Shown piece by piece: positions 1,059-20,819 of a stretch of 64,000 nt of DNA (its first letter is position 1; the number at the start of each line of letters is the position of its first letter). This DNA comes from Granulosicoccus antarcticus IMCC3135. Lineage in GTDB: Bacteria > Pseudomonadota > Gammaproteobacteria > Granulosicoccales > Granulosicoccaceae. A program made the position numbers and the translations under genes. The notes below the pieces were generated by a model. That model was not told the origin of the DNA. It saw only the letters and a program-made list of their open reading frames with translations, and ran no database searches. The DNA is taken from positions 3,592,501-3,656,500 of the forward strand of contig NZ_CP018632.1 in NCBI RefSeq assembly GCF_002215215.1. The letters are read 5' to 3'.

Positions 1059-1092
1059 GTGCGTACAAACTGCATAGCTGCCTTTCAACTGA

Positions 1093-3286
<2,194 letters not shown>

Positions 3287-3287
<1 letters not shown>

Positions 3288-4075
3288 TGAAGGTGCTCAA
3301 GGCAAACGGCATTGCGATGCATTGGCGTGAAGACGGGAACCCGGATGGAATGCCGGTCATCTTCGCCAATTCTCTTGGCACTGATCTGAGGATGTGGGAC
3401 GAGCTTCTGCCATTGCTGCCTAAGGAGTACCGTTATTTGCGCTATGACGTGCGTGGTCATGGCCTGACACAGGCGAGTGATGGGCCGTATTCGATGGAGT
3501 TGCTCACCGCAGATGCAGGGGCGCTGATTGATGAGTTGCAAGTGGGCCCTGTCATTTTTGTCGGCTTGTCGATCGGCGGCATGATCGGCCAGGGGCTTGC
3601 TGCATCGCGGCCCGATCTGGTCAAAGCACTGGTCTTGTCAAACACCGCTGCCCGCATGGGCACTGCCGAGATGTGGGATGCACGAATAGCGCAGATAATG
3701 CAAGGCGGGATAGAGGGTTCGGCTGATGCGATTCTGGATCGCTGGTTTGGAGCAGAGTTCCGTGAATCACCGCAGATATCTGCCTGGCGCGCCATGCTTA
3801 CACGCACGCCGCAGGCAGGATATCTGGGGTGCTGCGCTGCACTGGCAGATGCCGATTTGAGCGCATCGACCGGCACACTGCGCCTGCCAACGCTTGGCAT
3901 TGCAGGGTCTGAAGACGGGGCCAGTCCACCTGATCTTGTTGCAGCGACGTGCAAGCTGATTGAGGGCGCGGCATGCCATGTCATCTCTGGCGCAGGACAT
4001 CTTCCCTGCGTTGAGAAGCCTTGCGACTATGCGGCCATTTTATCGCCATTTCTAAAGGAGCATGCAAATGCCTGA
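3287..4075 (+). CDS. pcaD: 3-oxoadipate enol-lactonase
   Basis: Alpha/beta hydrolase of 262 residues that opens 3-oxoadipate enol-lactone to beta-ketoadipate. The nucleophile elbow GLSIGG places Ser95; Asp210 and His238 (GAGHLP) complete the expected triad. Its ATG overlaps the pobA stop by one base and its 3' end overlaps pcaC by eight bases, which indicates translational coupling. No C-terminal PcaC fusion is present, unlike the PcaL fusion of some actinobacteria. Confidence 0.93.
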
Positions 4076-4448
4076 TCGTTTTGACACCGGTATGGCCATT
4101 CGTCGGGAGGTGCTGGGCGATGCCCATGTTGATCGCACCGAAGCCAACAAGTCAGGCTTTGATGAGCCGTTCCAACGCATGATCACGGAAGGTGCCTGGG
4201 GCACATTGTGGGCGGACGATACGATCTCACGGCGTGACCGTTCCCTGCTGACACTGGCACTGCTGGCTGCGATGGGGAATTTTGAAGAAATCCCGATGCA
4301 TATCCGCGCCAGCCGCAATACCGGAGCACGTCCTGATGAAATCCTGCAGGCATTCATGCATGTGGCGGTCTATGCTGGAGTACCCAAGGCGAACCATGCC
4401 ATCAAACTTGCCAAGGAAACATTCAAGGAAATGGGAGTCGAAGTATGA
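4068..4448 (+). CDS. pcaC: 4-carboxymuconolactone decarboxylase
   Basis: Small all-helical decarboxylase (126 residues from this start) that turns 4-carboxymuconolactone into 3-oxoadipate enol-lactone. The family core [20 protein letters not shown] is clear, as is the C-terminal block containing HVAVYAGVP. Two ATGs are possible, 4062 and 4068; the second is preferred because the AAGGAG ribosome binding site at 4055-4060 is seven bases before it and only one base before the first. It overlaps pcaD upstream and shares ATGA with pcaH downstream. Confidence 0.93.
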
Positions 4449-5182
4449 GCCTGATCAAACAGACTGGCGGATTTGTTCCGCGTGATCGTAGCTGGCAGCC
4501 TGATGCGCTGACCCCGACTTACAAAACCAGCATAAAACGTAGTCCGCAGGCCGCGTTGCTGTCATTTCCGACGACGTTGAGCGAAGAAACCTCTCCTGTT
4601 TTCGGACACAATCTGATCGGCGAGCTCGATAACGATCTGATATTGAACTACGCGCATGCAGGGGAAAGCGCTATTGGCCCGCGTATTATCGTATATGGGC
4701 GTGTGCTGGACGAGATGGGGCGTGGGGTGCCGGGGGCTTTGGTGGAATTCTGGCAGGCCAACGCAGGTGGACGTTATCGCCACAAGAAAGAAAGCTACCT
4801 TGCAGCGCTTGATCCGAACTTCGGGGGATGTGGGCGGACGATTACGGCTGAGGACGGATCTTATGAATTCCGCACTGTTCAGCCGGGTCCATATCCTTGG
4901 CCTAATGGCATGAATGATTGGCGTCCGGCACATATACATTTTTCGCTTTTCGGGCATGGTTTTGCGCAACGGCTGATCACTCAGATGTATTTTGAAGGAG
5001 ACCCGCACATCAAGCTTTGCCCCATTGCGGGAGCACTCAACAACCAGAAAGCTATCGACGCGTTGACGGCGCTGCTGGACATGCACCGGACGGTTCCTAT
5101 GGACAGCCGTGCTTTCAAATTCGACATCGTGCTGCGCGGCCAACGCCAGACATACTTCGAAAACCGAAAAGAGGGTCTTTGA
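4445..5182 (+). CDS. pcaH: Protocatechuate 3,4-dioxygenase, beta subunit
   Basis: Iron-carrying subunit (245 residues) of the intradiol dioxygenase that cleaves protocatechuate to 3-carboxy-cis,cis-muconate. The four Fe(III) ligands of the family can be placed: Tyr111 (GGRYRH), Tyr150 (QPGPYPWP), His163 and His165 (RPAHIHFS). The long N-terminal arm before the dioxygenase core (about residues 1-70) is typical of the beta chain. The ATG overlaps the pcaC stop (ATGA) and pcaG starts two bases after its stop, as expected for subunits made in equal amounts. Confidence 0.95.
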
Positions 5183-5184
5183 TC

Positions 5185-5799
5185 ATGGTGCAAAAACTTG
5201 AATACCTGCGCGAGAGTCCTAGTCAGACTGCCGGGCCCTATGTACATATCGGATGCATGCCGAACTTTACGGGTATTGATGCTTACGGTGGAGACCTCGG
5301 TACGCACATGAAGACGGGCCCTGTACAAGGGCAGGAGATTACGATCACCGGTATCGTTTATGACGGCATGAATACGCCGTTGCGCGATGCGATGATTGAA
5401 ATCTGGCAACCTGATGCAGCAGGTCTGTTCCCGTCGGCTAATGAAACCCGTGGTCAGCCCGATCCGAACTTCACCGGATGGGGCCGTTCACCGGGAGACT
5501 CGAGCACAGGTGAGTTTGCGTTTCATACGGTAAAACCTGGTGCGGTACCTTATCCTGATGGGCGGATGCAAGCGCCACATATCACCGCATGGGTTGTCGC
5601 ACGTGGCATCAACATCGGCCTGCATACCCGTATCTACTTTGAGGATGAAGTCGATTCCAATGCGGCGGATCCGATTCTGAGTCGCATTGAACATCCAAGC
5701 CGTATTCCTACCTTGCTGGCAAAAAAGACTGGTGAGGGCGCGTACCGGTTCGACATCTATCTACAAGGTCCCAACGAGACCATCTTCTTTGACATATGA
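5185..5799 (+). CDS. pcaG: Protocatechuate 3,4-dioxygenase, alpha subunit
   Basis: Alpha subunit (204 residues) of protocatechuate 3,4-dioxygenase, which shapes the substrate pocket but does not hold the iron. It has the intradiol dioxygenase fold (IEIWQPDAAG, PDPNFTGWGR, and HTVKPGAVPYPDG) with APHITAWVVARG where the beta chain has its His-x-His iron ligands. The open frame runs upstream into pcaH, but the ATG at 5185 with GAGGG about nine bases upstream gives the normal family length. Its TGA overlaps an ATG at 5796, an alternative start for the next gene. Confidence 0.94.
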   Translation: MVQKLEYLRESPSQTAGPYVHIGCMPNFTGIDAYGGDLGTHMKTGPVQGQEITITGIVYDGMNTPLRDAMIEIWQPDAAGLFPSANETRGQPDPNFTGWGRSPGDSSTGEFAFHTVKPGAVPYPDGRMQAPHITAWVVARGINIGLHTRIYFEDEVDSNAADPILSRIEHPSRIPTLLAKKTGEGAYRFDIYLQGPNETIFFDI

Positions 5800-5807
5800 G
5801 GTCCTCA

Positions 5808-6632
5808 ATGAGCAATCCATGCATTATCTGCGTCGCCATCACCGGATCTCTCCCGACAAAAGAAAACAATCCGGCAGTGCCTATCACGATATCCGAACAA
5901 ATTGAAAGCACGCAGGAGGCCTTTGAGGCTGGGGCATCAATCGCCCACTGCCATGTGCGCGACGAGGCAGGCAAACCGACGTCTGATCCGGATCGTTTTG
6001 CCCGGCTCAAGGAGGGGCTGGAAAAGCATTGCCCTGGCATGATCGTGCAACTTTCCACGGGTGGGCGTTCTGGTGCCGGAAAGGAGCGCGGAGGAATGCT
6101 GTCGTTGTCGCCGGATATGGCATCCTTGTCCGTGGGTTCCAACAATTTCCCCACGCGTGTCTACGAGAACAGCCCTGACCTGGTGGACTGGTTGGCCTCC
6201 GAAATGATCACCCATGACGTTAAACCCGAGATCGAAGCGTTCGATCTGGGTCATATCGTTCAGGCAACGCGGATGGCCGCCGACGGGCGTCTGAAGGGGC
6301 CACTTTATGTGCAGTTCGTTATGGGTGTGAAGAATTCGATGCCTGCCGATGAGCCTATTTTCGACTTCTACATCGAAACACTGAAACGCCTTGCACCTGA
6401 TGCACAATGGTGTGCAGCAGGAATCGGACCGGCACAGCTGAAGATCAATGAATGGTCGATTGCGAAGGGTGGACACACCCGAACGGGACTGGAAGACAAC
6501 GTGCGATTGGACCGCGACACCCTGGCGCCGTCCAACGCCGCGCTGGTTCGTCGAGCGGTCGATCTATGCGAAAAACATGAACGCCCCGTCGCCACATGGC
6601 AACAAGCACGGGATATCCTGAATTTGCAGTAA
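5808..6632 (+). CDS. Beta-keto acid cleavage enzyme (BKACE, DUF849)
   Basis: Zinc-dependent enzyme of 274 residues in the DUF849/3-keto-5-aminohexanoate cleavage family, which condenses a beta-keto acid with acetyl-CoA to give acetoacetate and a new acyl-CoA. The metal site is visible as His47 and His49 (AHCHVRD) and Glu229 (GLEDN). Other landmarks are QLSTGG near residue 81 and MASLSVGSNNFP near 104. ATG 5808 has GAGGT five bases upstream; ATG 5796, overlapping the pcaG stop, is the alternative. As last gene of the pobA-pca operon its likely substrate is beta-ketoadipate, giving succinyl-CoA and acetoacetate (inference; beta-ketoadipate-active BKACEs are known). Confidence 0.88.
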   Translation: MSNPCIICVAITGSLPTKENNPAVPITISEQIESTQEAFEAGASIAHCHVRDEAGKPTSDPDRFARLKEGLEKHCPGMIVQLSTGGRSGAGKERGGMLSLSPDMASLSVGSNNFPTRVYENSPDLVDWLASEMITHDVKPEIEAFDLGHIVQATRMAADGRLKGPLYVQFVMGVKNSMPADEPIFDFYIETLKRLAPDAQWCAAGIGPAQLKINEWSIAKGGHTRTGLEDNVRLDRDTLAPSNAALVRRAVDLCEKHERPVATWQQARDILNLQ

Positions 6633-6634
6633 AT

Positions 6635-7534
6635 TCAGGCTGTTTTTCCTTCTTTCATTTTTACCAGGCCGGCAAGCAGGGTGTTGAGGGGTACGTCGAC
6701 GGACAATTCGGCACCGCGCGTTGCGACATAACCGTTGAGTGCATCAATCTCAGTGCGTCGTCCTGCCTCGATATCTTGCAGCATCGAAGGCTTGTGCGCA
6801 CCATGGGCGCCAAGCGCGAATTCTATCTGTCTGGCAACCGCCGTTCTATCCGTTTCTATCCCTTCCGTCTGTCCAAGAAGCAGAACTTCTGCTGCAATAC
6901 TGTCGGCCAATTCCTGACCTATGAAGTTTGCGATATCACCCACTGTGCCCTCGCCAAGTGCAGCAGTTGCATTCATTGCACAGTTAAAAGCAGCTTTTTG
7001 CCAGACTTGCGACAGAGCGGAGGTTGTTTGCTCCATGCCGCCTCTCGCCAGTGAACCTGCCAGCGCGGCGGCGGGGCCGTTGTCCTCAAGCGCGTTGAAC
7101 GGCGTGTAGGCCATGCCATGGCTTGCCACGTGACCCGGTCCGATCAAATCACCAGGCGTCATCGTGCAGCCAAACAAAATCTGCGCTGCGGGGACCATTG
7201 ACAGTAACCTTTCAATATTGCCCAAACCGTTTTGCAAGGTCAGCACGCAGGCGCCTGCATCGATTATCGCTTTGATGCTTTGCAGGGCTGAGTGCGAGTG
7301 CAGTGTCTTGGTTAACAGGATTACCACATCCACTTGAGAGGACTGCTCAGGTTCCATCGCGGGGATCATCAGGTGCTCAGTGCAATCATCCCAGTCGACA
7401 CGTAAGCCACTATCGCGGATTGCGGCAAGGTGGGCGATGTTCTTGTCTAGCAAGGTCACGTCAAACCCGGCCTTGTAGAGCGTTGCACCCATGACCGATC
7501 CCAATGCACCGGCACCTAAAATGGCAATTTTCAT
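6635..7534 (-). CDS. Ketopantoate reductase (ApbA/PanE) family protein
   Basis: NAD(P)-dependent 2-ketoacid reductase family protein of 299 residues. The N-terminal Rossmann motif ILGAGALGSVMGATL and the conserved block TLQNGLGN near residue 100 identify it, and the C-terminal helical domain is complete. The start at 7534 places the GxGxxG motif at residue 7; the longer open frame upstream has no family similarity. It is convergent with the BKACE gene, with a two-base gap, and lies downstream of an IclR gene on the same strand. A real role in pantothenate synthesis seems less likely than reduction of an alpha-keto acid in the neighbouring aromatic route (inference). Confidence 0.8.
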   Translation of the reverse strand: MKIAILGAGALGSVMGATLYKAGFDVTLLDKNIAHLAAIRDSGLRVDWDDCTEHLMIPAMEPEQSSQVDVVILLTKTLHSHSALQSIKAIIDAGACVLTLQNGLGNIERLLSMVPAAQILFGCTMTPGDLIGPGHVASHGMAYTPFNALEDNGPAAALAGSLARGGMEQTTSALSQVWQKAAFNCAMNATAALGEGTVGDIANFIGQELADSIAAEVLLLGQTEGIETDRTAVARQIEFALGAHGAHKPSMLQDIEAGRRTEIDALNGYVATRGAELSVDVPLNTLLAGLVKMKEGKTA

Positions 7535-8340: not shown

Positions 8341-8428
8341 GCGTTTTCCTTTCAGGGGCGGCAATGGGTTTATTGGACGAAGCAGTAACTTGACAGAAGT
8401 ACGTGAATATTGGATACTTTTTTTTTGA

Positions 8429-8455
8429 GATATATATATTATTATATAAGATATC
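8429..8455. promoter_or_regulatory. AT-rich imperfect palindrome in the IclR/decarboxylase spacer
   Basis: The 231-base spacer between the divergent IclR and decarboxylase genes has an A/T-only core flanked by GATAT and ATATC, preceded by a run of nine T. It could be the IclR operator and the decarboxylase operon promoter. Low-complexity A/T sequence makes such palindromes easy to find by chance. Confidence 0.25.
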
Positions 8456-8571: not shown

Positions 8572-10296
8572 ATGCCAGAGGATGACAAGAACGACTCGAT
8601 AACGGCTGGTGGCGCGATATTCGGTAAGCTCAAGGCTCTTGGCGTCGACTATGTTTTTGCCAATTCGGGTACCGATTTTCCTCCCATTATCGAAGGCCTG
8701 ATTGAAGCCACGCACAGCGGAGTAGACCTGCCAGTTCCTGTGACGGTGCCACATGAAATGGCTGCTGTGAGTATGGCGCATGGTTTTTTCCAGATTTCAG
8801 GGCGCATGCAGGCCGTCATGCTGCACACGAACGTAGGTCTTTCCAACGGCGCGACGGGTGCGATCAACGCATCGTGTGATCACATCCCGATGATGCTGAT
8901 GTCCGGGCGCACTCCCGTCATGGAAAAGGACCGTTTTGGCGCGCGTACCGTGCCGATTGGCTGGGGTCAGGAAATGTTCGACCAGACAGCTTTGGTACGT
9001 GAGGCTTCGAAATGGGACTATGAATTGCGCTTTCCCGAGCAGGTCTCTGAGCTCTTTGATCGAGGCTGGGCGATCGCAAATTCCACCCCTAAGGGGCCGA
9101 TCTACCTGAGCTTGCCACGTGAAGTGCTGTGCGGACAGACTCCCCGCGAAGGGTTGGATCAGTCCTCGATCATGGCACCAGTTGTGGCCGCACCGGATCC
9201 TGTGTCGCTCAAACGAGCCGCCGAATTACTGGCAGGGGCCAAAACACCTCTCATCATCAGTCAGCGTGGTGCAGGTAGTGAATCTGCATTCAATGCATTG
9301 GCAGAATTTGTACAGGACTGGGCAATACCGTTGTCGCACTACTGGGCTAACCAGTTGTCAATTGCGGTGTCAAATCCGATGCAAGTTGGCGTGGCTCCTG
9401 AGGCGCTGTTAGCACAGGCTGATGTAATTCTGGTAATCAATAGTCTTGCACCCTGGTGGCCCGACAAGGTGACACTGCAGCAGAATGTGCGTGTGATCCA
9501 CCTAGGCCCGGATCCGCTGTTCACCCGAACTCCCGTGCGCAACTTTCGCGCTGATGTAACATTGGTCGGGGAAACCGCACCCAGTATTCATGCGCTGATC
9601 GAGACGATGTCAAGCTGTCAGCGCGACGAGTCGTTGATTGCAACCCGCCGTGAGAAAATTACCGCGCTATCACATGAAAACCGCGAAGCCGTGTTCAAAG
9701 CTGCAGAGAGTGGCCGTCTCGGTCCAATGAGCAAGGAGTGGGTCAGCCTGTGTCTGGGGCGTGCGATAAAAGGACGTAAGGCGTCAGTGTTTCACGAACT
9801 AGGGTGCCCGCTACTGCCGCTCGATCTTGATCAGCATCTGAGCTATTTTCAAGAACCTCATTCGGGTGGCCTTGGCTGGGGATTCCCCGCTGCGCTCGGC
9901 GCACAACTTGCGGATAGAGAGCGTTTGATTTTCGCCACAATGGGCGACGGCAGCTATATGTTCGCCAACCCCACCGTCTGCCATCAGATCGCCGAGGCGA
10001 TGGAATTGCCTGTCATCGTGCTGGTATTGAACAATGAGGAATGGGGCGCTGTCCGCAGCTCTGTGGAAGGGTTGTACAGTAAAGGTCATGCGGTCAAATC
10101 CAATCAGGTGCCGTTGACTTCACTCAAACCCAGCCCCGACTTCACGCGCACCGCCGAGGCGAGCCGCGCTTATACCGAGACGGTGACACAAGGCGCAGAC
10201 CTGCCCGACGCACTTGATCGTGCGATTCGCGTGGCCACCGAAGAGAAGCGGCATGTACTACTCAATATCGCGATAGAGCCGGCAGCCGCACACTAA
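8572..10296 (+). CDS. Benzoylformate-decarboxylase-like ThDP enzyme
   Basis: Thiamine-diphosphate enzyme of 574 residues with the three-domain layout of acetolactate synthase and benzoylformate decarboxylase. Visible landmarks are the cofactor-activating Glu62 (VPHEMAAVSMAHG), His85 (LHTNVGLSNG, aligned with the active-site LHS segment of benzoylformate decarboxylase), and the ThDP/Mg motif GDGS at 458-461 with the paired Asn about 27 residues later (VLNNEEWG). The linked alpha-hydroxy acid dehydrogenase and TRAP transporter suggest decarboxylation of an aryl-glyoxylate such as 4-hydroxybenzoylformate to the aldehyde (inference). A general acetolactate synthase role is unlikely, as no regulatory subunit is present. 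GAGG precedes the ATG. Confidence 0.8.
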   Translation: MPEDDKNDSITAGGAIFGKLKALGVDYVFANSGTDFPPIIEGLIEATHSGVDLPVPVTVPHEMAAVSMAHGFFQISGRMQAVMLHTNVGLSNGATGAINASCDHIPMMLMSGRTPVMEKDRFGARTVPIGWGQEMFDQTALVREASKWDYELRFPEQVSELFDRGWAIANSTPKGPIYLSLPREVLCGQTPREGLDQSSIMAPVVAAPDPVSLKRAAELLAGAKTPLIISQRGAGSESAFNALAEFVQDWAIPLSHYWANQLSIAVSNPMQVGVAPEALLAQADVILVINSLAPWWPDKVTLQQNVRVIHLGPDPLFTRTPVRNFRADVTLVGETAPSIHALIETMSSCQRDESLIATRREKITALSHENREAVFKAAESGRLGPMSKEWVSLCLGRAIKGRKASVFHELGCPLLPLDLDQHLSYFQEPHSGGLGWGFPAALGAQLADRERLIFATMGDGSYMFANPTVCHQIAEAMELPVIVLVLNNEEWGAVRSSVEGLYSKGHAVKSNQVPLTSLKPSPDFTRTAEASRAYTETVTQGADLPDALDRAIRVATEEKRHVLLNIAIEPAAAH

Positions 10297-10360
10297 AAAG
10301 AATCTTGACCGCCAGGGCTTTTCGCCTTGATCCATTAAGCATGTGTAGGGAGAACAATAC

Positions 10361-11401
10361 ATGATGACTCGAAGAACGACTATCGCCGCCATGGTGCTTG
10401 GTCTGGCCGCATTCGGCGCACAAGGTGCGCTGGCCGCCGATCATGAATTCAAGCTTCACCAGTTTCTGGGTGCCAACGCACCTGCTCAAACAAAGATGTT
10501 GCAGCCTTGGGCAGATGCTGTCGCCGAGGCTTCGGGCGGTAAGGTCCATATTGAAATATTTCCATCGATGACCCTGGGTGGGCGCCCTCCGGAGCTGATC
10601 TCACAGGTGCGTGACGGCGTAGTAGATCTGGTCTGGACGGTAAACGGCTACACACCAGGCCTTTTCCCGCGAACCGAAGTATTCGAACTACCGACTGTCT
10701 ACACAAACGATCCGGCCGCAACCAACATGGCATTGGCCGACATTTTCGAGAGCGATCTGAAGGAAGAATACAAGGGTGTTGAAGTCATGTTCCTGCATGT
10801 CCACGCAGGCCAGGGCATCCATATGCGCGATACCGCAGTACGCAGTCCTGCTGATATGGCTGGCAAAAAAATGCGTATTCCCACTCGGACAGGCGGATGG
10901 ATCATAGAGGCACTGGGTGCATCACCGGCCGCAATGCCCGTGCCTGAGCTTCCACCAGCCTTGCAAAAAGGCGTAGTGGATGGCGCATTCATTCCGTGGG
11001 AAATCATTCCTCCGCTCAAGATCCAGGAGCAGACTCAATATCAGATCGAAGGCGCAGATGAAGCCCGCTTCGGCAACACTGTGTTTCAGGTGTCCATGAA
11101 CCAGGCGCGTTGGGATGGCCTTCCTGAAGAAATTCAACAGGCGTTCCGTTCAGCATCTGGTGGCGACTGGCCGGAGAAGGTCGGTGAAATCTGGCGTGAA
11201 GCCGATGATTTTGGCATCAAGATGGCGGTCGACAGCGGCAATGAACACATCATGCTGACCGAGGAGGAGACCGCAGCCTTCGATAAGGCGCTGCTACCGG
11301 TGGTTGATCGCTGGATAGAGGAGGTAGACGCCAAGGGGATCGACGGGGCCGCATTGGTTGAAAAGGCTCGTGCCGCCACTCAAGCCCATTCAACACGTTA
11401 A
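10361..11401 (+). CDS. dctP: TRAP transporter substrate-binding protein (DctP family)
   Basis: Periplasmic receptor of a tripartite ATP-independent transporter, 346 residues. A signal peptide with an Arg pair and hydrophobic core ends at AALAADHEF-like residues (about 1-27). The family's binding core is present: the conserved Arg lies in GKKMRIPTRTGG, followed by GASPAAMPVPELPPALQKGVVDG. The ligand is probably an organic acid; context points to a (hydroxy)mandelate-type compound (inference). Its TAA overlaps the ATG of the small permease, so the three TRAP genes form one unit. Confidence 0.9.
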   Translation: MMTRRTTIAAMVLGLAAFGAQGALAADHEFKLHQFLGANAPAQTKMLQPWADAVAEASGGKVHIEIFPSMTLGGRPPELISQVRDGVVDLVWTVNGYTPGLFPRTEVFELPTVYTNDPAATNMALADIFESDLKEEYKGVEVMFLHVHAGQGIHMRDTAVRSPADMAGKKMRIPTRTGGWIIEALGASPAAMPVPELPPALQKGVVDGAFIPWEIIPPLKIQEQTQYQIEGADEARFGNTVFQVSMNQARWDGLPEEIQQAFRSASGGDWPEKVGEIWREADDFGIKMAVDSGNEHIMLTEEETAAFDKALLPVVDRWIEEVDAKGIDGAALVEKARAATQAHSTR

Positions 11402-11922
11402 TGGCACACGTGGCACATAACGGCAGTAACGGGTTTACCGTTGCTGCTCGCCACATTGTCAGCATCTGGGCATTGTTGGGTGGCGCCGTGTTGCTTGCGG
11501 TGATCGCGATCAACATGCTCTCGGTAATCGGGTCGGTATTTGGACGACCCTTTCCCGGTGACTTTGAGTTGACCGAGATGGGAGTTGCTATCGCCGCATT
11601 CGCCTTCCTGCCTTACTGTCAGGTGACGGGGGCGAATGTTACAGCCGACATCTTCACATCGCGTGCTTCACCGCGCTGGATTGCCTTTCTAACGCTTCTG
11701 GGGGCTGTTGTCGCACTTGTATTCAGCGTACTTCTTATCTGGCGCATGTATTTCGGGATGCTTGACCAGAAGACGTATGACTATATGACGGCCATCCTGC
11801 AAGTTCCTCAGTGGATCGCCTTTTTGCCAATTCTGATCTCTCTCGCGCTACTCGCGCTGGCAGCCATGACCACCATTGTAGAAGAAGGATACATCGTGAA
11901 GAAAGGTCGCCCTCATGTCTGA
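11401..11922 (+). CDS. dctQ: TRAP transporter small permease (DctQ family)
   Basis: Inner-membrane protein of 173 residues with four predicted transmembrane segments (about residues 20-43, 57-75, 96-115 and 137-157). The family segment FPGDFELTEMGVAIAAFAFLPYCQ is recognisable. It starts on the last base of the dctP stop and overlaps dctM by eight bases, indicating coupled translation. It partners with the large permease. Confidence 0.88.
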   Translation: MAHVAHNGSNGFTVAARHIVSIWALLGGAVLLAVIAINMLSVIGSVFGRPFPGDFELTEMGVAIAAFAFLPYCQVTGANVTADIFTSRASPRWIAFLTLLGAVVALVFSVLLIWRMYFGMLDQKTYDYMTAILQVPQWIAFLPILISLALLALAAMTTIVEEGYIVKKGRPHV

Positions 11923-13270
11923 AGCCATGATGCTAGGCCTTGGTGGTTTTGTGGTCCTTGTTGCGCTGATTGCCGTGCGTATGCCCATTGCCTACGCGAT
12001 GATGCTTGTGGGTGCTATTGGCACGATGATTATCAATGGTCCTACGTTGGTGCTGAGCCAACTCAAGACTCTCGCCTATGGACAGTTCTCTGTCTATGAT
12101 CTGTCGGTTGTTCCCATGTTCGTGCTCATGGGGGCGATTGCATCCAAAACAGGATTATCCAAGGCGCTGTTTCGGGCTGCTAACGCCTGGCTCGGTTGGT
12201 TGCCCGGAGGCACGGCGATGGCGGCAATTGCAGGCTGCGCTGGATTCGGTGCGGTCTGCGGCTCGTCCCTGGCGACGGCCTCTACCATGGGTAAAGTCGC
12301 CTTGCCAGAGCTGCGCCGATACAACTACTCGGGTGCGCTTGCGACAGGAACGCTTGCAGCAGGTGGTGTGCTTGGCATTCTAATCCCGCCCTCGGTGGTA
12401 CTCATCATCTATTCGATTATCGTCGAGGCCAATATCGTCACGATGTTCATGGCGGCCTTCATTCCCGGCATCCTGGCGGTTATTCTGTTCCTTCTGACGA
12501 TTGCCATCTATGTGGCTATCTATCCTGAGGCCGGACCAAAAGGTGGCATGCCGGAACGCCGGGAGTTCACCGAAGCCACTGTCGGCATGATCCCCGTTTT
12601 GATCATCTTCGGATTGGTGATCGGCGGTATCTACGCAGGCCTGTTCAATCCAACACCGGCTGCAGCCGTTGGTGTTGCTCTGGTGATTATTTTCGGTTTC
12701 ATTCAGCGCACACTCGACTGGACGAGCATGCGCGAAGCGCTACTAGAGACAGCATCAACCACGGGCATGATCTATCTGATCCTGTTGGGGGCAGAATTGC
12801 TCAAGATATTCATGTCTCGCTCTGGTCTGCCACAGGAGGCGGCTCTGTGGGTGGCTAGCTCTGGTCTGGCCCCAATGATGATTCTTGTCCTGTTACTGGT
12901 TGCCCTCATCGTGTTGGGATGCCTGATGGATTCCTTATCGATGATTCTGTTGGTGATTCCGTTTTTCTGGCCTGTGCTTGTTGAAGTCAATGGCGGCATC
13001 TACCAGATGGCAGATGGAGCCGGCTACGGCATGAGTACGGAGGATCTGAAAGTCTGGTTTGGCATTCTTGCGCTCATTGTCGTTGAACTTGGTCTCATCA
13101 CACCCCCAGTCGGGATGAACGTTTTTGTGATTTCGTCGCTGGCCAAAGACGTCCCCATGATCGAAACATTCAAAGGCGTTCTGCCATTTTTCGGGGCTGA
13201 AATAGTTCGTATCAGCCTGCTGGTCGCCTTTCCTGCGATCGCGCTCTGGCTTCCGCACGCTTTACAATAG
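11915..13270 (+). CDS. dctM: TRAP transporter large permease (DctM family)
   Basis: Sodium-coupled transport subunit, 451 residues, with about a dozen hydrophobic segments. Characteristic pieces include the GFGAVCGSSLATASTMGKVALPEL region (residues 108-131), GTLAAGGVLGILIPPSVVLIIY soon after, and the C-terminal ITPPVGMNVFVISS motif. It is complete and directly followed, two bases on, by the hydroxy-acid dehydrogenase gene. That links uptake with oxidation of the same substrate. Confidence 0.92.
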   Translation: MSEAMMLGLGGFVVLVALIAVRMPIAYAMMLVGAIGTMIINGPTLVLSQLKTLAYGQFSVYDLSVVPMFVLMGAIASKTGLSKALFRAANAWLGWLPGGTAMAAIAGCAGFGAVCGSSLATASTMGKVALPELRRYNYSGALATGTLAAGGVLGILIPPSVVLIIYSIIVEANIVTMFMAAFIPGILAVILFLLTIAIYVAIYPEAGPKGGMPERREFTEATVGMIPVLIIFGLVIGGIYAGLFNPTPAAAVGVALVIIFGFIQRTLDWTSMREALLETASTTGMIYLILLGAELLKIFMSRSGLPQEAALWVASSGLAPMMILVLLLVALIVLGCLMDSLSMILLVIPFFWPVLVEVNGGIYQMADGAGYGMSTEDLKVWFGILALIVVELGLITPPVGMNVFVISSLAKDVPMIETFKGVLPFFGAEIVRISLLVAFPAIALWLPHALQ

Positions 13271-13272
13271 GA

Positions 13273-14400
13273 ATGAGTAGCTGCGTGAAAATTGAAGATT
13301 TTCGTCGTCGTGCCAGACGCCGCTTGCCCCGAATGGTATTCGATTATCTGGAAGGTGGTGCGGCAGGCGAGCGAGGTCTTTCGCGCAACCGTGAAGCGTT
13401 CTCCAAGCATCTATTCGAAGCACGGCGTCTGACTGACGTGAGCCATCGTGATGCCTCAGCGAGTCTGTTTGGCAAGCGTTATCCGTTACCGCTCGCCATC
13501 GCACCCACCGGCATCAATGGGGTGCTTCGTCCCGGGGGTGATCTCATGCTGGCACGGGCAGCCGCCCGTCATGGCATCCCGTTTTGCTTATCCACGGCCT
13601 CCACCTCGACCATCGAGGAGGTGGCTACAGCATCGGATGGCGAAAAGTGGTTTCAGCTATACGTACTGCACCGAGAGCAGGGGATGCTCTTTGTGAAACG
13701 AGCGCTCGATGCCGGTTACACCACACTGATTCTTACCGTGGATGTGGCCGTCAACGGTAAGCGTGAGCGCGATATGCGATCAGGATTCAAAGTGCCGTTC
13801 AGGCTTTCACCGCGTATCGCTCTTGATGCGGCATTACATCCGCTCTGGTCTGCTTCACAAATACGTCACGGTCTACCAGAGCTTGCAAACTTTGCTACAG
13901 CACAAGCGACAGATGCATCGTCTCAGGCCGCACTGATGAATCGCCAGATGGATGCAAGTTTTGACTGGGCCGCCTTTGCACAATTGCGAAATGCCTGGCC
14001 GCACAAACTCATTCTCAAGGGATTGAATTCCCTGGCAGAGGTGGGGCTGGCGGAGAGGGCCGGTGCCGATGCGGTCATACTTTCCAACCACGGTGGTCGT
14101 CAGCTCGAGGATGTCGCAGCGCCTATTGACACACTGCGGGCAGTCGCCGGTAAGTGCAAAATGCCACTATTGCTCGACAGTGGCATTCGCTCAGGGGCTG
14201 ATGTAGTCAAGGGGATGGCTGCCGGTGCGCAACTGTGCCTGCTGGGTCGTGCAACTCTTTATGGCCTGGCAGCCGATGGAGAAGCAGGCGTTTGCGACGT
14301 TATCAAAATGATCGCCTCCGAAATTGATACAACGCTTGCTCTGACCGGTTATCCACGGGTGAGCGAGATTGGCCCCGAGGCGCTGCTTGCTGCGCATTAA
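13273..14400 (+). CDS. FMN-dependent alpha-hydroxy acid dehydrogenase, mandelate/lactate dehydrogenase type
   Basis: TIM-barrel flavoenzyme of 375 residues oxidising an alpha-hydroxy acid to the alpha-keto acid. The signature SNHGGRQLED puts the catalytic base at His273; FMN phosphate-binding segments LDSGIRSG and LLGRATLYGL follow, and the N-terminal FDYLEGGA and PLAIAPTGINGV blocks are intact. Lactate dehydrogenase (LldD) is the sequence alternative. Because a benzoylformate-decarboxylase-like gene opens the same operon, a mandelate-type substrate is the better guess. It follows dctM after two bases with an ATG whose own ribosome binding site is weak, so coupling is likely. Confidence 0.82.
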   Translation: MSSCVKIEDFRRRARRRLPRMVFDYLEGGAAGERGLSRNREAFSKHLFEARRLTDVSHRDASASLFGKRYPLPLAIAPTGINGVLRPGGDLMLARAAARHGIPFCLSTASTSTIEEVATASDGEKWFQLYVLHREQGMLFVKRALDAGYTTLILTVDVAVNGKRERDMRSGFKVPFRLSPRIALDAALHPLWSASQIRHGLPELANFATAQATDASSQAALMNRQMDASFDWAAFAQLRNAWPHKLILKGLNSLAEVGLAERAGADAVILSNHGGRQLEDVAAPIDTLRAVAGKCKMPLLLDSGIRSGADVVKGMAAGAQLCLLGRATLYGLAADGEAGVCDVIKMIASEIDTTLALTGYPRVSEIGPEALLAAH

Positions 14401-14860
14401 AAACCGTTCGCGCTTGGAATTTCAAACATCGATAGTCAGTGTGGACGAGCGCAGTTTGAAGCCAACACAGTCTCTATAGATAGTGGTTTTTGATTTCAAC
14501 AATGGAGTTTTATGGATCGTCCTGAAATGCTCGGCGACAGAGACGCGTTAGATGCACACCATCACAAGTTGAAGATGCGAGTATTGCGCCGCTATCGGAT
14601 ATCGTACGCCGCCTTCATGCAACTCCCAGAAAGTGCCAAATGACGTACTAATGTGTTCTATTTCCCCACAGCTCATCTGCAAAGTGCTGTGCGCGAGCAA
14701 AGCAATCAGGATATTGCCGCCAGTATCATCGGTCACGTTCAACCGTGGGTTCGAGTCCGTCGAAGAGCTCAAGGGGCGCTGTCTGGCCGAGACCGGTTTT
14801 GAACCACCGATTGCGCCGGTATTCAAGCAGAACTACGCCAAGGCGAGTGAGGTCTGAGCC
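14401..14860. other. Non-coding or decayed stretch with unassigned short frames
   Basis: No intact gene is visible. A 43-codon frame on the plus strand (14512-14643, beginning MDRPEMLGDRDAL) has no recognised relative. A second frame ending at 14857 carries FNRGFESVEELKGRC and FEPPIAPVFKQNYAKASEV, which look protein-like and may be the tail of a lost gene. Together with the fragments that follow, the stretch reads as the start of a degraded operon. Confidence 0.4.
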
Positions 14861-15121
14861 ATGACAGAGGAGTTTGATGACAATTATTCACGTGCACGAT
14901 TTCATAGTGCGCTGGATAACGCCATCAGGCTGGCACCGGCGGCGCGAGCAGCCGGTATACCCGTCATCTTTACTGAAGTGAAATACGGCAGAACGGGTGA
15001 TCACCTTGAAAAACGCCGGGATACACCAGCATTGTTGTTGTCGCACTCGGCTACCGAGACGCGGAAAAAGACTTCAACGCCACTCTACCCAAATCACGTT
15101 TGCCCTATTCGGACGTTCTGA
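14861..15121 (+). pseudogene. Isochorismatase-like amidohydrolase remnant
   Basis: The frame begins MTEEFDDNYSRA, the start typical of N-carbamoylsarcosine amidase-type cysteine hydrolases. It then jumps to LDNAIRLAPAARAAGIPVIFTEVKYG, normally found about 35-40 residues further into the fold. The segment with the catalytic Asp (the ALLVIDF-like strand) is missing, and the frame loses similarity after about residue 55. An internal deletion plus 3' loss is the simplest reading. It is followed by other remnants. Confidence 0.6.
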
Positions 15122-15167: not shown

Positions 15168-15302
15168 ATGACCAGCTTTTCAAATGACAAGACGATGTTT
15201 ACAGCGGCAGTAGTCCGCGACACTGGCGGGCCGTTCAAACTCGAACAAGTCTCTAAAAACGAGCCTCAAGGCGATGAGGTGCTGGTAGGCTCAGCTGAGT
15301 GA
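15168..15302 (+). pseudogene. Aryl-alcohol dehydrogenase N-terminal remnant
   Basis: Forty-four codons after a good ribosome binding site (AAGGAA) encode a typical zinc alcohol dehydrogenase N-terminus: FTAAVVRDTGGPFKLEQVS, then a degenerate GDEVLV. This is the style of benzyl-alcohol/aryl-alcohol dehydrogenases. The frame stops inside the 3' end of the neighbouring IclR gene, before the first zinc ligand. It suggests the locus once had an aromatic alcohol dehydrogenase, consistent with the aromatic genes upstream. Confidence 0.65.
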
Positions 15303-16082
15303 GGTAGTCTCTTTGTTGTCGCCCAGTTTTAGGGAAATTCGTTGCGACGTTTCCAGCAACTTGGGAATCCAGCTGATTAGTGTGTCGCGTGAAACACGAA
15401 ATACCGGCGCTGAAATACTGATTGCCGCAATAACGTGACCGTTCATGCCGAATACTGGTGCCGCGATGCAGTGGATTTCCATCTGGTGTTCGCAATCATC
15501 CATCGCAAACCCTTGCTGTCTGATCTTGTCGAGCTCGGCTGAAAATCTGTCTGTTTCACAAATCGTATTCTCAGTAAAGCGATCAAGCGACATCCGTGGT
15601 ATCAGGGCCTCAGTGATTTCTGACTCAGTAAAGGCGAGGATTGCCTTACCCAGCCCGGTGCAATGCAGTGGACCTCGGTTCCCTAGTTGAGAGATCATCT
15701 GAATTGTTTGTTGCGAATCGACTCGATCAACATAGAGAAGCTTTGTATCGTCGCGCTGCCCGACCAGAACATTCTCCTTCACGAAAGCTCCAAGTGTCTC
15801 GATCTCCGGCCTGACTGCATCACGGATCTTCAGACCGTGAACGGCCTTTAAGGATAAGGCGGACAGCCGCAGTCCAAGCCGGTAGCCGTTTTCTTCCGCA
15901 TTGAATTCCAGCAAGCATTCATCTGTTAACGAGGTCAAAACCCGATGCAGAGTGCTTTTAGGAAACTTGAGTTCTCGCATCAGGGAAGTAAACGAGCATG
16001 CTTTGCGATGGCGTGCAACTTCTTCCAGTACAAGAATAGAACGGGTCAATGGTGAAACTGTACCTTCGCCGCGCTTTGGCAT
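15291..16082 (-). CDS. IclR-family transcriptional regulator
   Basis: IclR regulator of 263 residues: winged helix-turn-helix at about residues 10-70 (FTSLMRELKFPKSTLHRVLTSL) and the GAF-like effector domain, including GPLHCTGLGKAILAF and the C-terminal AAPVFGMNGHVIAAISIS block. It diverges from the enolase-superfamily/aldolase/dehydrogenase operon across 200 bases that contain a strong palindrome, and so is its likely local regulator. Its 3' end overlaps the alcohol dehydrogenase remnant on the opposite strand. Confidence 0.88.
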   Translation of the reverse strand: MPKRGEGTVSPLTRSILVLEEVARHRKACSFTSLMRELKFPKSTLHRVLTSLTDECLLEFNAEENGYRLGLRLSALSLKAVHGLKIRDAVRPEIETLGAFVKENVLVGQRDDTKLLYVDRVDSQQTIQMISQLGNRGPLHCTGLGKAILAFTESEITEALIPRMSLDRFTENTICETDRFSAELDKIRQQGFAMDDCEHQMEIHCIAAPVFGMNGHVIAAISISAPVFRVSRDTLISWIPKLLETSQRISLKLGDNKETTSLS

Positions 16083-16142
16083 TTTTCCTTCCTTATTTCT
16101 TGACAGACAGATTGACAGGTTTTATGGTCTTGGTGGCGTACC

Positions 16143-16171
16143 CTTATGAGGAACTAGAGTTCCTTCATAAG
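16143..16171. promoter_or_regulatory. Palindromic operator, probably for the divergent IclR regulator
   Basis: CTTATGAGGAACT-AG-AGTTCC(T)TCATAAG is an almost perfect 13-base inverted repeat broken by one extra T on the right arm. A further GGAACT copy starts two bases on. It sits about 60 bases upstream of the IclR start and about 70 upstream of the small frame at 16238. This is the clearest operator-like sequence in the left half of the window. Confidence 0.65.
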
Positions 16172-16237
16172 GAACTCGCATGTTATCACCTCGTGGCTTT
16201 GGATGGCGCGCGGCAATCAAATCCATTGGGAGGATTC

Positions 16238-16288
16238 ATGGGAAACCAATTCAAAGCAACGTTGGCGTTATGGGTGCTGCCGGCATGA
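16238..16288 (+). CDS. Possible 16-residue leader peptide coupled to the enolase-superfamily gene
   Basis: A strong ribosome binding site (GGGAGGA, 16228-16234) precedes an ATG that opens a 16-codon frame (MGNQFKATLALWVLPA). Its stop overlaps the ATG at 16285 of the next gene as ATGA. The next gene's own ATG lacks an evident ribosome binding site, so the small frame may serve to load ribosomes by coupling. It could equally be a chance frame if translation of the enzyme starts further upstream. Confidence 0.3.
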   Translation: MGNQFKATLALWVLPA

Positions 16289-17451
16289 ACCGTTCTGTAG
16301 CAACGGATACGTCCGTGAAAATAAGCAAGATCGATGTCTGGTCTTTCCGTGAACCGATCGAGCGGGTGGTTGCCACCTCCTTTGGAAGGATGACGGACCG
16401 TCGGTGTGTTCTGGTGCGGATTGAAGATCGCGATGGTTGTTTTGGTTTTGGTGAAATCTTTGCCAACTGGCCCGTCGCCGCTCCGGAGAATCGAGCTCGA
16501 TTGCTTGCAGAGGATCTAGCGTGGTTGTTGCTGGGGCGGGAGATTTCGTCCCCAACTGAGATGTTCGACTATCTTGTTTTGACGACTCGGCTGGTGGCGC
16601 TTCAAGCGGGGGAGTTCGGGCCGTTTCAACAAGCCATTGCGGGGCTGGATATCGCCATCAATGACCTGTTTGCGCGCAAGGCCGATATGTCATTGGCACG
16701 GTATCTCGCCGCCGATACGGCCCCAGCGGTGCCTGTCTACGCCAGCGGGATTCACATCGACAGTGCGGATGAGATGATCGCCGCTGCCCGGCAAGTCGGA
16801 TTCACTCGCTTTAAGGTCAAGGTCGGTTTCGACACTGACGCGGAACCCGCAAAGCTGACGCGACTGGTCGAAACGCTGCGCAAGGGTGAAACCTTGATGG
16901 TAGATGCAAACCAGGCGTGGAATTTTGATCAGGCTCGAAATTTTGCTCATGCGACCCAATCGCTCGGGCTTGGTTGGATCGAAGAGCCAATGCCCGTTGA
17001 CGCGAATCCGGCCCAATGGCGTGATCTGGCGACGGTAACTGATACGCCCCTTGCGGGGGGTGAAAACCTTGCGGGTTTCGCAGCGTTTGAACAGGCAATC
17101 GACGAGCGTGTTCTGTCTATTATCCAACCGGATGTAGCCAAATGGGGCGGCGTCTCCGGGTGTTTGGCAGTAGGGTTCGCGGCAAAAGCGCAGGGTAAAA
17201 CATATTGTCCTCATTTTCTCGGCGGTGGTGTTGGTCTGATGGCTTCTGCCCATGTTCTGGCGGCTTGCGCTGGGGGATGGCTTGAGACAGATGTAAATGA
17301 CAGCGTCCTACGAAGCGCTTTTGATGGCCTTGATGGGTCTCAAATCACGAATGGCACCCGCCAAATAGACACATCGCCCGGGATGGGAATCACCTTCCTT
17401 CCTGCTGCGATTACTCCCTTTTTGACATCGCATTATGAGGTTTCACAATGA
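16285..17451 (+). CDS. Mandelate racemase/muconate lactonizing (enolase superfamily) enzyme
   Basis: Enolase-superfamily enzyme of 388 residues, mandelate-racemase subgroup. The catalytic set can be read: Lys177-x-Lys179 (FKVKVGF), metal ligands Asp207, Glu233 and Glu260 (MVDANQAW, WIEEP, GGEN), and the Asp283/His310 dyad (QPDVAKWGG, CPHFLGGG). Spacing matches mandelate racemase closely. Such enzymes are racemases or acid-sugar dehydratases; the HpaI-type aldolase next door favours a dehydratase making a 2-keto-3-deoxy acid (inference). The frame is open to an ATG at 16180, but conserved sequence starts near residue 10 from the chosen start. The stop overlaps the aldolase start. Confidence 0.82.
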   Translation: MNRSVATDTSVKISKIDVWSFREPIERVVATSFGRMTDRRCVLVRIEDRDGCFGFGEIFANWPVAAPENRARLLAEDLAWLLLGREISSPTEMFDYLVLTTRLVALQAGEFGPFQQAIAGLDIAINDLFARKADMSLARYLAADTAPAVPVYASGIHIDSADEMIAAARQVGFTRFKVKVGFDTDAEPAKLTRLVETLRKGETLMVDANQAWNFDQARNFAHATQSLGLGWIEEPMPVDANPAQWRDLATVTDTPLAGGENLAGFAAFEQAIDERVLSIIQPDVAKWGGVSGCLAVGFAAKAQGKTYCPHFLGGGVGLMASAHVLAACAGGWLETDVNDSVLRSAFDGLDGSQITNGTRQIDTSPGMGITFLPAAITPFLTSHYEVSQ

Positions 17452-18251
17452 CACATGTTTTTCCGACAAATCCTTTCAGAACCGCCTTGGCTAAGCAGGG
17501 GCGTCCCTTGGTCGGGATCTGGTCAGTTCTCAATTCATCTAATGTTGTCGAAGGTCTGGCACATTCAGGATTCGACTGGATGTTGATCGATAACGAACAC
17601 GCGCCCACGGACCTTGGAGATACTCTGTCTCACTTGCGGGCCATCGCTGGATCGGACACGGCTCCCATTGTGCGTTTGCCATGGAATGATCCGGTCATGA
17701 TAAAAAAGTACCTTGATATCGGAGCCCAGACCTTGATGCTGCCGTTTGTTCAGTCGGTTGAGGAGGCCAAGGCCGCAGTTGCCGCCACACGATATGCACC
17801 GCAAGGCCATCGTGGTATAGCCATGATGCATCGTGCCAGCAGGTATGGCCGCATCCGCGATTACATTGATCGGGCAAACGATGAACGTTTCCTGATAGTA
17901 CAGATTGAAACCCCCACAGCCTTGGATGTTGCTGAAGATATTGCTGCAGTCGAGGGCGTTGATGCGGTGTTTTTTGGGCCGGGTGACCTATCGACGTTGA
18001 TGGGACATCGCGGCAACCCGACACACCAGGATGTTCTGGAGGCCATGGAGGCGAAGTGCCGCCTTCTGCACAAGGCTGGAAAAACCGTTGGTATTCTTGC
18101 TCCTAACGCCGAGGCGGCAGAACGGTTTATCCAGTTCGGATTTGATTTTGTGTCGGTCGCGACAGACGGTGCGATTATTTTTAACGCAGCTGACGGGATC
18201 GCAGCACGTTTCGTCTCTCTGTCCGAGGCGAATACAGCCAAGGAGGCGTAA
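17448..18251 (+). CDS. HpcH/HpaI-family class II pyruvate aldolase
   Basis: Metal-dependent aldolase of 267 residues in the 4-hydroxy-2-oxoheptanedioate / 2-keto-3-deoxy-acid aldolase family. It cleaves a 2-keto-4-hydroxy acid to pyruvate (or an oxo-acid) plus an aldehyde. Visible active-site residues are His51 (DNEHAP), Arg76 (IVRLPW), and the metal ligands Glu154 (QIETPTAL) and Asp180 (FFGPGDLS). It shares ATGA with the upstream dehydratase-like gene, and an aldehyde dehydrogenase gene follows. The three fit dehydration, cleavage and aldehyde oxidation. Confidence 0.87.
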   Translation: MTHVFPTNPFRTALAKQGRPLVGIWSVLNSSNVVEGLAHSGFDWMLIDNEHAPTDLGDTLSHLRAIAGSDTAPIVRLPWNDPVMIKKYLDIGAQTLMLPFVQSVEEAKAAVAATRYAPQGHRGIAMMHRASRYGRIRDYIDRANDERFLIVQIETPTALDVAEDIAAVEGVDAVFFGPGDLSTLMGHRGNPTHQDVLEAMEAKCRLLHKAGKTVGILAPNAEAAERFIQFGFDFVSVATDGAIIFNAADGIAARFVSLSEANTAKEA

Positions 18252-18376
18252 CTAAACATCATTTCCGATCGACAGTGGTTTGAAATCATTTCTGTTTTGA
18301 TTCTCGACCATTTCGTCGATTTGAATGTTTGGTACGCAGCCCCATCCCCGCTGAATACAACTGACAAAAAGAGCAG

Positions 18377-19822
18377 ATGATAGATACAATTAATTCAATC
18401 GAATGCCAGTTCATTGATGGCAAGTTTCAGGATGGGAGCGGCGAGCAAAAAATCGATGTGATCGATCCGGCCACGGGGCTGGCTTTTGCCTCCTTCAACG
18501 AGGCGGGAGCAGAAGATCTCGATCACGCACTCACTTCGTCGTTCGATGCTTTCAAGGCCTGGCGGATTGTATCTGCGCGAAAAAGACAAGATATTTTATT
18601 GCGGGCGGGCGATTTGATTCTGGAGCGCGCGGAAGAGATTGCTGTCGATCTAACTCGTGAATCCGGCAAGCCTCTGGCGGAGTCAAGAGTCGAAGTTGCA
18701 ACATCGGTTGAGATACTTAGGTTTTATGCCGAAGAAGCCAAGCGAATCTATGGGCGCACAGTCCCATCGGCGACTCCGGGTCTGGCGCAACGTGTGGTTC
18801 AGGAACCTGTTGGGCCAGTCATAGCCTTTGTTGCATGGAATTTTCCAGCTGTGAACTTCATGCGGAAAGTCGCAGCAGCGATTGCTGCCGGATGTTCGAT
18901 TATCATCAAGCCTTCAGAGGAAACGCCGGTAACCGGAGCCAGAATCGCAGGAGCGTTTCGCGATGCCGGGTTGCCCGACGGCGTGTTGAATGTCGTTTAT
19001 GGTTCGCCGGACGTAATTTCTCGGCATCTTTGTGCTTCATCCATACCACGTAAGCTGACATTTACTGGCAGCGTTGCGGTGGGTAGGCAACTCATCAAGC
19101 TTGCTTCAGAAAATCTCTTGCGCACAACGATGGAACTAGGCGGTCATGCGCCGTTCATCGTTTTCAAGGATGCCGATATAGATCTTGCAGCGAAACTGCT
19201 GATTGCCGGGAAGTTTCGCAATGGCGGACAAGTTTGCGTCGCACCGTCGCGGTTCCTTGTCCATAGCAGTATCCACAATACATTCGTTGGAAAAGTGATT
19301 GAACAAGCCGGCTCCGTTCGTGTGGGCCCCGGTTCGGATGAAACCACGACAATGGGGCCGCTAGCGAATGCTCGCAGAGTGGAGCAATGCACTCTTCTGG
19401 TGGACGATGCCCTTTCTAAAGGTGCAAAGGTCGCCTGGGCTGGAACGATTCCCGAGAGCGATGGATATTACTTTGCACCGACGATCCTGGAGGATGTTCC
19501 CGAGAATGCCCAAATCCTGATAGATGAGCCGTTTGGTCCTATTGCTCCGATTGTGTCATTTACCACCGCCGATGAAGCCTTTGAGATTGCGAACCGTTTG
19601 CCGTATGGCTTGGCTGCTTATGCCTTTACATCTGATCAGAAATTGATCCGCCGGATCGGAGAAGAAATGCAGGCGGGTATGACGGCAATCAATACACTTC
19701 AGGTTGCTGCGCCGGAAATGCCGTTTGTTGGATTAGGTTGGAGTGGCTGGGGATCCGACGGTGGCCCAGAGGGGTTGGCGGCGTTCTTGACGACACGTAT
19801 TGTCAACGAAGCAATCGTTTGA
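18377..19822 (+). CDS. NAD(P)-dependent aldehyde dehydrogenase
   Basis: Aldehyde dehydrogenase of 481 residues, complete. Catalytic Cys287 (NGGQVCVAPSR), general-base Glu253 (MELGGHAPF), Asn155 (AWNFP) and the nucleotide-binding FTGSVAVG motif are all present. The succinate-semialdehyde/lactaldehyde dehydrogenase branch is the closest by feel. Its substrate may be the aldehyde released by the neighbouring aldolase, or an aromatic aldehyde from the decarboxylase upstream; sequence alone does not decide. It lies 125 bases after the aldolase on the same strand and may have its own promoter. Confidence 0.88.
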   Translation: MIDTINSIECQFIDGKFQDGSGEQKIDVIDPATGLAFASFNEAGAEDLDHALTSSFDAFKAWRIVSARKRQDILLRAGDLILERAEEIAVDLTRESGKPLAESRVEVATSVEILRFYAEEAKRIYGRTVPSATPGLAQRVVQEPVGPVIAFVAWNFPAVNFMRKVAAAIAAGCSIIIKPSEETPVTGARIAGAFRDAGLPDGVLNVVYGSPDVISRHLCASSIPRKLTFTGSVAVGRQLIKLASENLLRTTMELGGHAPFIVFKDADIDLAAKLLIAGKFRNGGQVCVAPSRFLVHSSIHNTFVGKVIEQAGSVRVGPGSDETTTMGPLANARRVEQCTLLVDDALSKGAKVAWAGTIPESDGYYFAPTILEDVPENAQILIDEPFGPIAPIVSFTTADEAFEIANRLPYGLAAYAFTSDQKLIRRIGEEMQAGMTAINTLQVAAPEMPFVGLGWSGWGSDGGPEGLAAFLTTRIVNEAIV

Positions 19823-20499: not shown

Positions 20500-20819
20500 A
20501 TGTGTAATTCTCAAAGATTGGTCAAAAGCAGGGCGCGCAGATCCTTTCAAAGGTCAGCCAGCAAACGGTTACGCGATCAGGCGCGATTCTGTCGTATTGA
20601 TCTATATGAATGCAAGCTTTACATCGGAGAATTTTCGTTGCATGCCGGGATCGGGATGGCGTCGGAAACAGTGGAAAATTACCAATCTCTGGGTTGATTT
20701 TTGATCGCTTAAAAGAGTAATAATCACGCCAGTGAACAAGACGGCCAGGCTGATCTCTTCACGCATGCCGTTATGCCTTAACGGTTCCAGTGGGCCAGTG
20801 TTCCAGAGACATCGTAATC

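Follow-up and report, generated by a model that had tools for sequence, protein, structure and literature searches.

We analysed a 64,000-nucleotide stretch of the genome of the marine bacterium Granulosicoccus antarcticus IMCC3135 (NZ_CP018632.1, positions 3,592,501 to 3,656,500), hereafter the window, in which a five-gene operon at 8572-14400 lies entirely on the plus strand. It encodes a thiamine diphosphate (ThDP)-dependent enzyme of the PRK08327 family, proposed here as a (4-hydroxy)benzoylformate decarboxylase (8572-10296), followed by the three components of a tripartite ATP-independent periplasmic (TRAP) transporter, namely the solute-binding protein DctP (10361-11401; Pfam DctP), the small permease DctQ/TarQ (11401-11922; Pfam DctQ, 1.3e-19) and the large permease DctM/TarM (11915-13270; Pfam DctM, 7e-80; TIGR00786 above cut-off), and a flavin mononucleotide (FMN)-dependent dehydrogenase of the MdlB type (13273-14400). 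The ThDP and DctP genes are separated by 64 bases, the next two junctions are overlaps and 2 bases separate DctM from the FMN dehydrogenase; co-directional genes with such tight spacings are expected to form a single transcription unit. An initial annotation, made from the sequence alone, had read the decarboxylase-like, dctPQM-like and dehydrogenase genes as one operon next to pob/pca, and we recovered all five open reading frames (ORFs) in this co-directional arrangement, with pob/pca genes occupying ∼27-6632. It had overlooked a PanE-family dehydrogenase, an IclR regulator and two aldehyde dehydrogenases (ALDHs) left of the window.

Among solved structures, the FMN enzyme is closest to the Pseudomonas putida (S)-mandelate dehydrogenase (MDH) 6bfg, with 429 bits and 53% identity across 367 residues with zero gaps, whereas the next match outside the MDHs, a double-length L-lactate oxidase construct, reaches 273 bits. 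The catalytic residues Tyr26, Tyr131, Arg165 and His274-Gly-Gly-Arg277 (P. putida numbering) are kept, and both the MDH-specific Gly81 and the membrane-binding segment (∼residues 177-215) are retained. The protein also shares 51-55% identity with the FMN dehydrogenases that Rhizobium rhizogenes K84 and Acinetobacter soli carry next to genes annotated as benzoylformate decarboxylase (BFDC). Gap-free identity and conserved active-site residues thus bear out the earlier reading of this gene as a probable mandelate-type dehydrogenase. Use of an aliphatic, lactate-like 2-hydroxy acid by a lactate-type dehydrogenase and an acetolactate-synthase-like enzyme is very improbable. NCBIfam L-lactate dehydrogenase and many acetolactate synthase models do score through homology, and a general annotation would agree with them, but all of those scores fall under the curated cut-offs, the two MDH-specific features are present, and the DctP neighbours, the ALDHs and the pob/pca context described below are all aromatic.

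The best PDB sequence match of DctP is 7nr2, a TarP with coumarate. When its model was compared with solved structures, ranks 1-11 were aromatic-acid TRAP receptors or TarP proteins (Z 39.6-42.7; the truncated title of one entry does not show its ligand), while ranks 16 and beyond, including isethionate, ectoine and pyroglutamate receptors, had Z of at most 33.4. Rank 12 was 4p56, reportedly solved with mandelate. We propose from this comparison that DctP is a TarP-like aromatic carboxylate receptor; the operon had been credited with its own transporter for (hydroxy)mandelate-type acids, and the sequence and structural neighbours of the model agree with the aromatic-acid class. Such a transporter might instead import 4-hydroxybenzoate or hydroxycinnamates for pob/pca, leaving both enzymes to act on an internally made hydroxy acid. 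Coumarate, ferulate and caffeate are ligands of TarP proteins, and the TarP of Rhodopseudomonas palustris has nanomolar affinity for hydroxycinnamates (PMC3610893), and a Roseovarius nubinhibens TRAP transporter adjoining pca is induced on 4-hydroxybenzoate (PMC12442348). We nevertheless regard this explanation as unlikely, as the TRAP genes lie within the unit formed by the ThDP and MDH genes and a divergent iclR/panE pair separates them from pca.

The ThDP enzyme scores 623 bits against the NCBIfam model PRK08327 (NF006203), above its cut-off; the curated name of this family is merely "thiamine pyrophosphate-requiring protein." Its AlphaFold model (predicted local distance difference test score, 88.7) has the BFDC fold at Z ∼35 (34-36 for BFDC, and 34.6-34.9 for the 4-hydroxybenzoylformate decarboxylases 6qsi and 7orx), and pyruvate oxidase and acetolactate synthase come next with Z 33.5, barely apart from BFDC, a gap so small that the fold alone is not decisive. 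Residues were mapped on the 1bfd reference sequence, which a PDB search confirmed (528/528). In the profile alignment, Glu47, His70, Ser26 and Ala460 of BFDC correspond to E62, H85, T34 and A493, and E62, H85, T34 and W295 are invariant across 56 aligned sequences. A search for canonical BFDC elsewhere in the genome gave nothing above cut-off. The BFDC fold, the Glu47 and His70 equivalents and the gene context support the predicted keto-acid decarboxylase, albeit outside the BFDC family. Together with the narrow Z gap, two sequence results weigh against this assignment: the protein fails the BFDC family model NF005485 (125 bits versus a cut-off of 493), and BFDC His281 is without a counterpart, LAPWWPD replacing RYHQYDP, in a local alignment that is uncertain by a few residues.

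Immediately left of the operon, on the minus strand, lies a gene of the PanE/ketopantoate reductase (KPR) family (6635-7534; the listed ORF extends to 7621, a probable N-terminal over-call), proposed as a D-(R)-mandelate dehydrogenase. Its product scores 161 bits against 8wl3, annotated as 2-dehydropantoate 2-reductase, 120 bits against 3wfi, an Enterococcus D-mandelate dehydrogenase, and 72 bits against E. coli KPR. It shares a family with the D-mandelate dehydrogenase and is nearer to it than to the E. coli enzyme, yet 8wl3 ranks above 3wfi, and the catabolic role proposed for the window's protein is read from context. D-Mandelate dehydrogenases and ketopantoate reductases are placed in one family in the part of PMC6303947 that cites Wada 2008. 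In Ruegeria, Tritonibacter, Poseidonocella and a Rhodobacteraceae metagenome-assembled genome, a PanE relative immediately precedes the ThDP gene, and in Salipiger one lies downstream of MDH; by locus, such relatives adjoin the ThDP gene at L015, L020, L023 and L064 and are near it at L016. By sequence, the PanE-type enzyme could oxidize the other mandelate enantiomer, in which case a racemase would not be needed.

An enolase-superfamily gene (16180-17451) had been suggested as that racemase, and this assignment did not hold. The solved structure that it matches most strongly is 3ddm (299 bits), its matches at E<1e-20 do not include P. putida mandelate racemase, and it belongs to a separate iclR-MR-HpcH-ALDH operon. 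Relatives of the enolase-superfamily (at least 35% identity), HpcH (at least 40%) and ALDH (at least 45%) proteins of this operon occur at none of the 80 loci with a ThDP relative that were collected in one scan, not all of them full length. The stretch at 15291-19822, with an IclR gene on the minus strand and overlapping or tightly spaced genes for the enolase-superfamily protein, an HpcH/HpaI aldolase and an ALDH, has the appearance of sugar-acid catabolism. A second enolase-superfamily gene lies at 6364-7446 of L097, the stretch covering the left flank of the window, whose start is genome position 3592501. Mandelate racemase ranks third among its solved matches (179 bits), and it has Lys-x-Arg in place of the Lys164-x-Lys166 of mandelate racemase. 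With an OpuAC-type ATP-binding cassette (ABC) transporter it occupies L097 6364-10750, 5-10 kb before the window begins, and as part of that gene group ∼17 kb from the ThDP gene it was not counted in the module.

The ALDH of the sugar-acid-like operon (18377-19822), previously put forward for the aldehyde step, was likewise discarded, being only ∼30% identical to the module-type ALDH, of which there are two closer relatives left of the window. These relatives of the Tritonibacter ThDP-linked ALDH lie at C1:3587672-3589108 (58% identity) and 3590021-3591316 (43%), the first ending ∼3.4 kb and the second ∼1.1 kb before the window start. In L097 they occupy 11166-12611 and 13500-14921 on the minus strand, with a short-chain dehydrogenase/reductase (SDR) gene between them and an AraC regulator beside pcaB. 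Vanillin and salicylaldehyde dehydrogenases are the best solved matches of both; the first reaches 591 bits with the vanillin dehydrogenase 9ihb versus 321 for the best match outside this group. This pair is the likely aldehyde step.

The pob/pca set, on the plus strand, comprises pcaB (27-1058; NF004631, 389 bits), whose ORF truly starts 4 bases before the window (L097 15997-17058), pobA for 4-hydroxybenzoate 3-monooxygenase (2106-3287; TIGR02360, 692 bits) and pcaD, pcaC, pcaH, pcaG and a 3-oxoadipate:acetyl-CoA acetyltransferase (BKACE) gene (3287-6632; NCBIfam equivalogs above cut-off); PcaQ is also present. Taking these genes together, we judge with good confidence that the operon is an uptake and oxidation module for a mandelate-type acid, most likely 4-hydroxymandelate, that feeds pob/pca. 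The TarPQM-type transporter would import an aromatic 2-hydroxy acid. Its (S) form would be a substrate of the membrane-associated FMN enzyme and its (R) form probably one of the neighboring PanE-type, NAD(P)-dependent dehydrogenase, each oxidation yielding the arylglyoxylate, which the PRK08327 enzyme would decarboxylate to a benzaldehyde. Oxidation of the latter by the left-flank vanillin/salicylaldehyde-type dehydrogenases would give (4-hydroxy)benzoate, and 4-hydroxybenzoate would go on to 3-oxoadipate through PobA and the Pca enzymes. The analysis shows the identity of the genes, the conserved active-site residues and the fold, as well as the layout of the operon and the repeated co-occurrence of its parts; the substrate and its ring substitution, the direction of the route, the division of the enantiomers between two dehydrogenases and the activity of the ThDP enzyme are inferred.

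That the substrates are mandelate-type acids is probable. Specifically 4-hydroxymandelate has an even chance. The genome has no benA above cut-off and no match to boxB, so that plain mandelate, once converted to benzoate, may go no further while 4-hydroxybenzoate would reach PobA, which favors a 4-hydroxylated substrate. The absence of benA and boxB still leaves room for other benzoate routes, a point on the opposing side, and one VanA_C-type oxygenase gene far away in the genome allows for a methoxylated substrate. By sequence and context, 4-hydroxymandelate would be the most economical substrate, in line with the route to PobA that the initial annotation had proposed.

Among the 80 ThDP loci, a TarP-like DctP (at least 50% identity) was found at 25, a module-type aromatic ALDH (at least 50%) at 35 and pob/pca at 10, counts that are not independent since many Rhodobacteraceae loci are related and some loci are partial. 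The association of the ThDP gene with TarP-type TRAP systems, aromatic ALDHs and pob/pca is not due to chance. Salipiger marinus has a contiguous set of iclR, ThDP, DctPQM, MDH, PanE, ALDHa, ALDHb and AraC genes, and in Roseivivax the ThDP gene stands beside a TarP-type TRAP system, pobA and pca. A Neorhizobium petrolearium plasmid brings together PanE, ALDH (66%), TRAP, ThDP (56%) and MDH (51%). In Roseinatronobacter, one stretch leads from a nitrile hydratase gene through an ABC transporter, an amidase and a LysR gene to ThDP and ALDHa, and the contig opens with an MDH fragment (61% identity); this arrangement resembles a mandelonitrile-to-benzoate route. Single stretches with MDH, ABC transporter, amidase, LysR, ThDP and ALDHa genes were seen at L066 (1-13187), where a nitrile hydratase alpha gene was identified, and L053. 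At L081, L086 and L079, a TarP-like TRAP system and the ThDP gene are followed by a cobalamin-independent methionine-synthase-like gene, a possible demethylation link.

The same neighborhoods also count against a module dedicated to mandelates. Within 10 kb of the ThDP gene, MDH was present at just 3 of the 80 loci and PanE at 6, and some loci carry an SDR together with a gene resembling 2,4'-dihydroxyacetophenone dioxygenase; the PRK08327-type family may therefore serve wider aryl-C2 substrates. The Neorhizobium proteins are also distant, DctP sharing only 28% and PanE only 33% identity with their counterparts in the window. In a broader scheme, the transporter and ThDP enzyme could be mainly for arylglyoxylates and lignin-type C2 fragments related to them, such as 4-hydroxybenzoylformate and phenacyl alcohols, and the dehydrogenases would give mandelates one way in. 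The 4-hydroxybenzoylformate decarboxylases of Pf-5 are tied to aryl-C2 lignin fragments (PMC7760541), the majority of ThDP loci are without MDH and PanE, and Sulfitobacter and Ensifer have related ThDP genes next to genes for an ALDH, an SDR and a 2,4'-dihydroxyacetophenone dioxygenase-like protein. Here, however, a dedicated MDH gene directly abuts the TRAP genes, PanE is adjacent, and a dioxygenase or phenacyl-alcohol gene was not identified at this window; we hold this broader role to be a reasonable but less probable alternative. On plasmids (L113 and L114), the ThDP gene adjoins genes for a 2,4'-dihydroxyacetophenone dioxygenase-family protein, an SDR, an ALDH and a Liv-type ABC transporter.

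Among 48 genomes of the family, MDH at E≤1e-90 was found only in this one and the ThDP gene at E≤1e-150 in three others, and the ThDP protein shares 82% identity with that of Palleronia. Horizontal gain is likely. The arrangement, as first noted, is distinctive for its combination of parts, but not for the module as such, which occurs in Alphaproteobacteria too. It is somewhat short of an even chance, in our view, that PRK08327 constitutes a second arylglyoxylate decarboxylase family apart from BFDC, with His70 kept and His281 exchanged for a Trp-rich block, and that it anchors a mandelate/aryl-C2 pathway that handles both enantiomers without a racemase and has passed by horizontal transfer between marine Alphaproteobacteria as well as into this genome.

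The IclR-family regulator on the minus strand (7618 to ∼8343; Pfam IclR_C and HTH_IclR; probable start at an internal Met, the listed ORF reaching 8511) has relatives of at least 40% identity at 27 of the 80 loci. A candidate operon promoter, TTGAGA-16-TAAGAT (8425-8452, plus strand), matches the consensus alone, the number of such matches being not above chance; the AT-rich block around it is partly common to the Palleronia locus (L032). A search for a shared IclR operator gave no convincing palindrome. Elsewhere in the window, a 582-residue ORF (20790-22538) with no Pfam or NCBIfam match carries the motif WPDxxWYQVQxA three times and is probably secreted.

The proposed chemistry is that of mdlABCD of P. 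putida and its relatives in R. rhizogenes K84 and on A. soli plasmids, with which the MdlB-type dehydrogenase is shared. The operon differs in having a decarboxylase from another ThDP family (23-25% identical to the mdlC type), a PanE-type dehydrogenase in place of the racemase, vanillin/salicylaldehyde-type ALDHs, TRAP uptake and a pob/pca exit. The bzf cluster and the 4-hydroxybenzoylformate decarboxylases of Pseudomonas and Rhodococcus (PMC7760541; PDB 6qsi and 7orx) share the fold and the sequence from arylglyoxylate through benzaldehyde to benzoate, but LLC-1 has a major facilitator superfamily transporter and a porin and no mandelate dehydrogenase (PMC7760541), and the decarboxylase of these systems is of the canonical family. 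The TarPQM aromatic-acid transporters are nearest to DctP; here they are tied to mandelate-type enzymes, and the ligand is predicted. Among the papers that were searched, none combined mandelate, benzoylformate and a TRAP transporter. The operon is plausibly a variant of the known mandelate route built from mostly different enzyme families than the textbook pathway, and not a new kind of system.

A function can now be proposed for a ThDP family that recurs in many Alphaproteobacteria. Mandelate-type acids are suggested as a carbon source for these bacteria, taken up by TRAP transporters and led by non-orthologous enzymes into the beta-ketoadipate pathway. If this is true, metabolic models would be misled wherever the genes are annotated as acetolactate synthase, lactate dehydrogenase and ketopantoate reductase.

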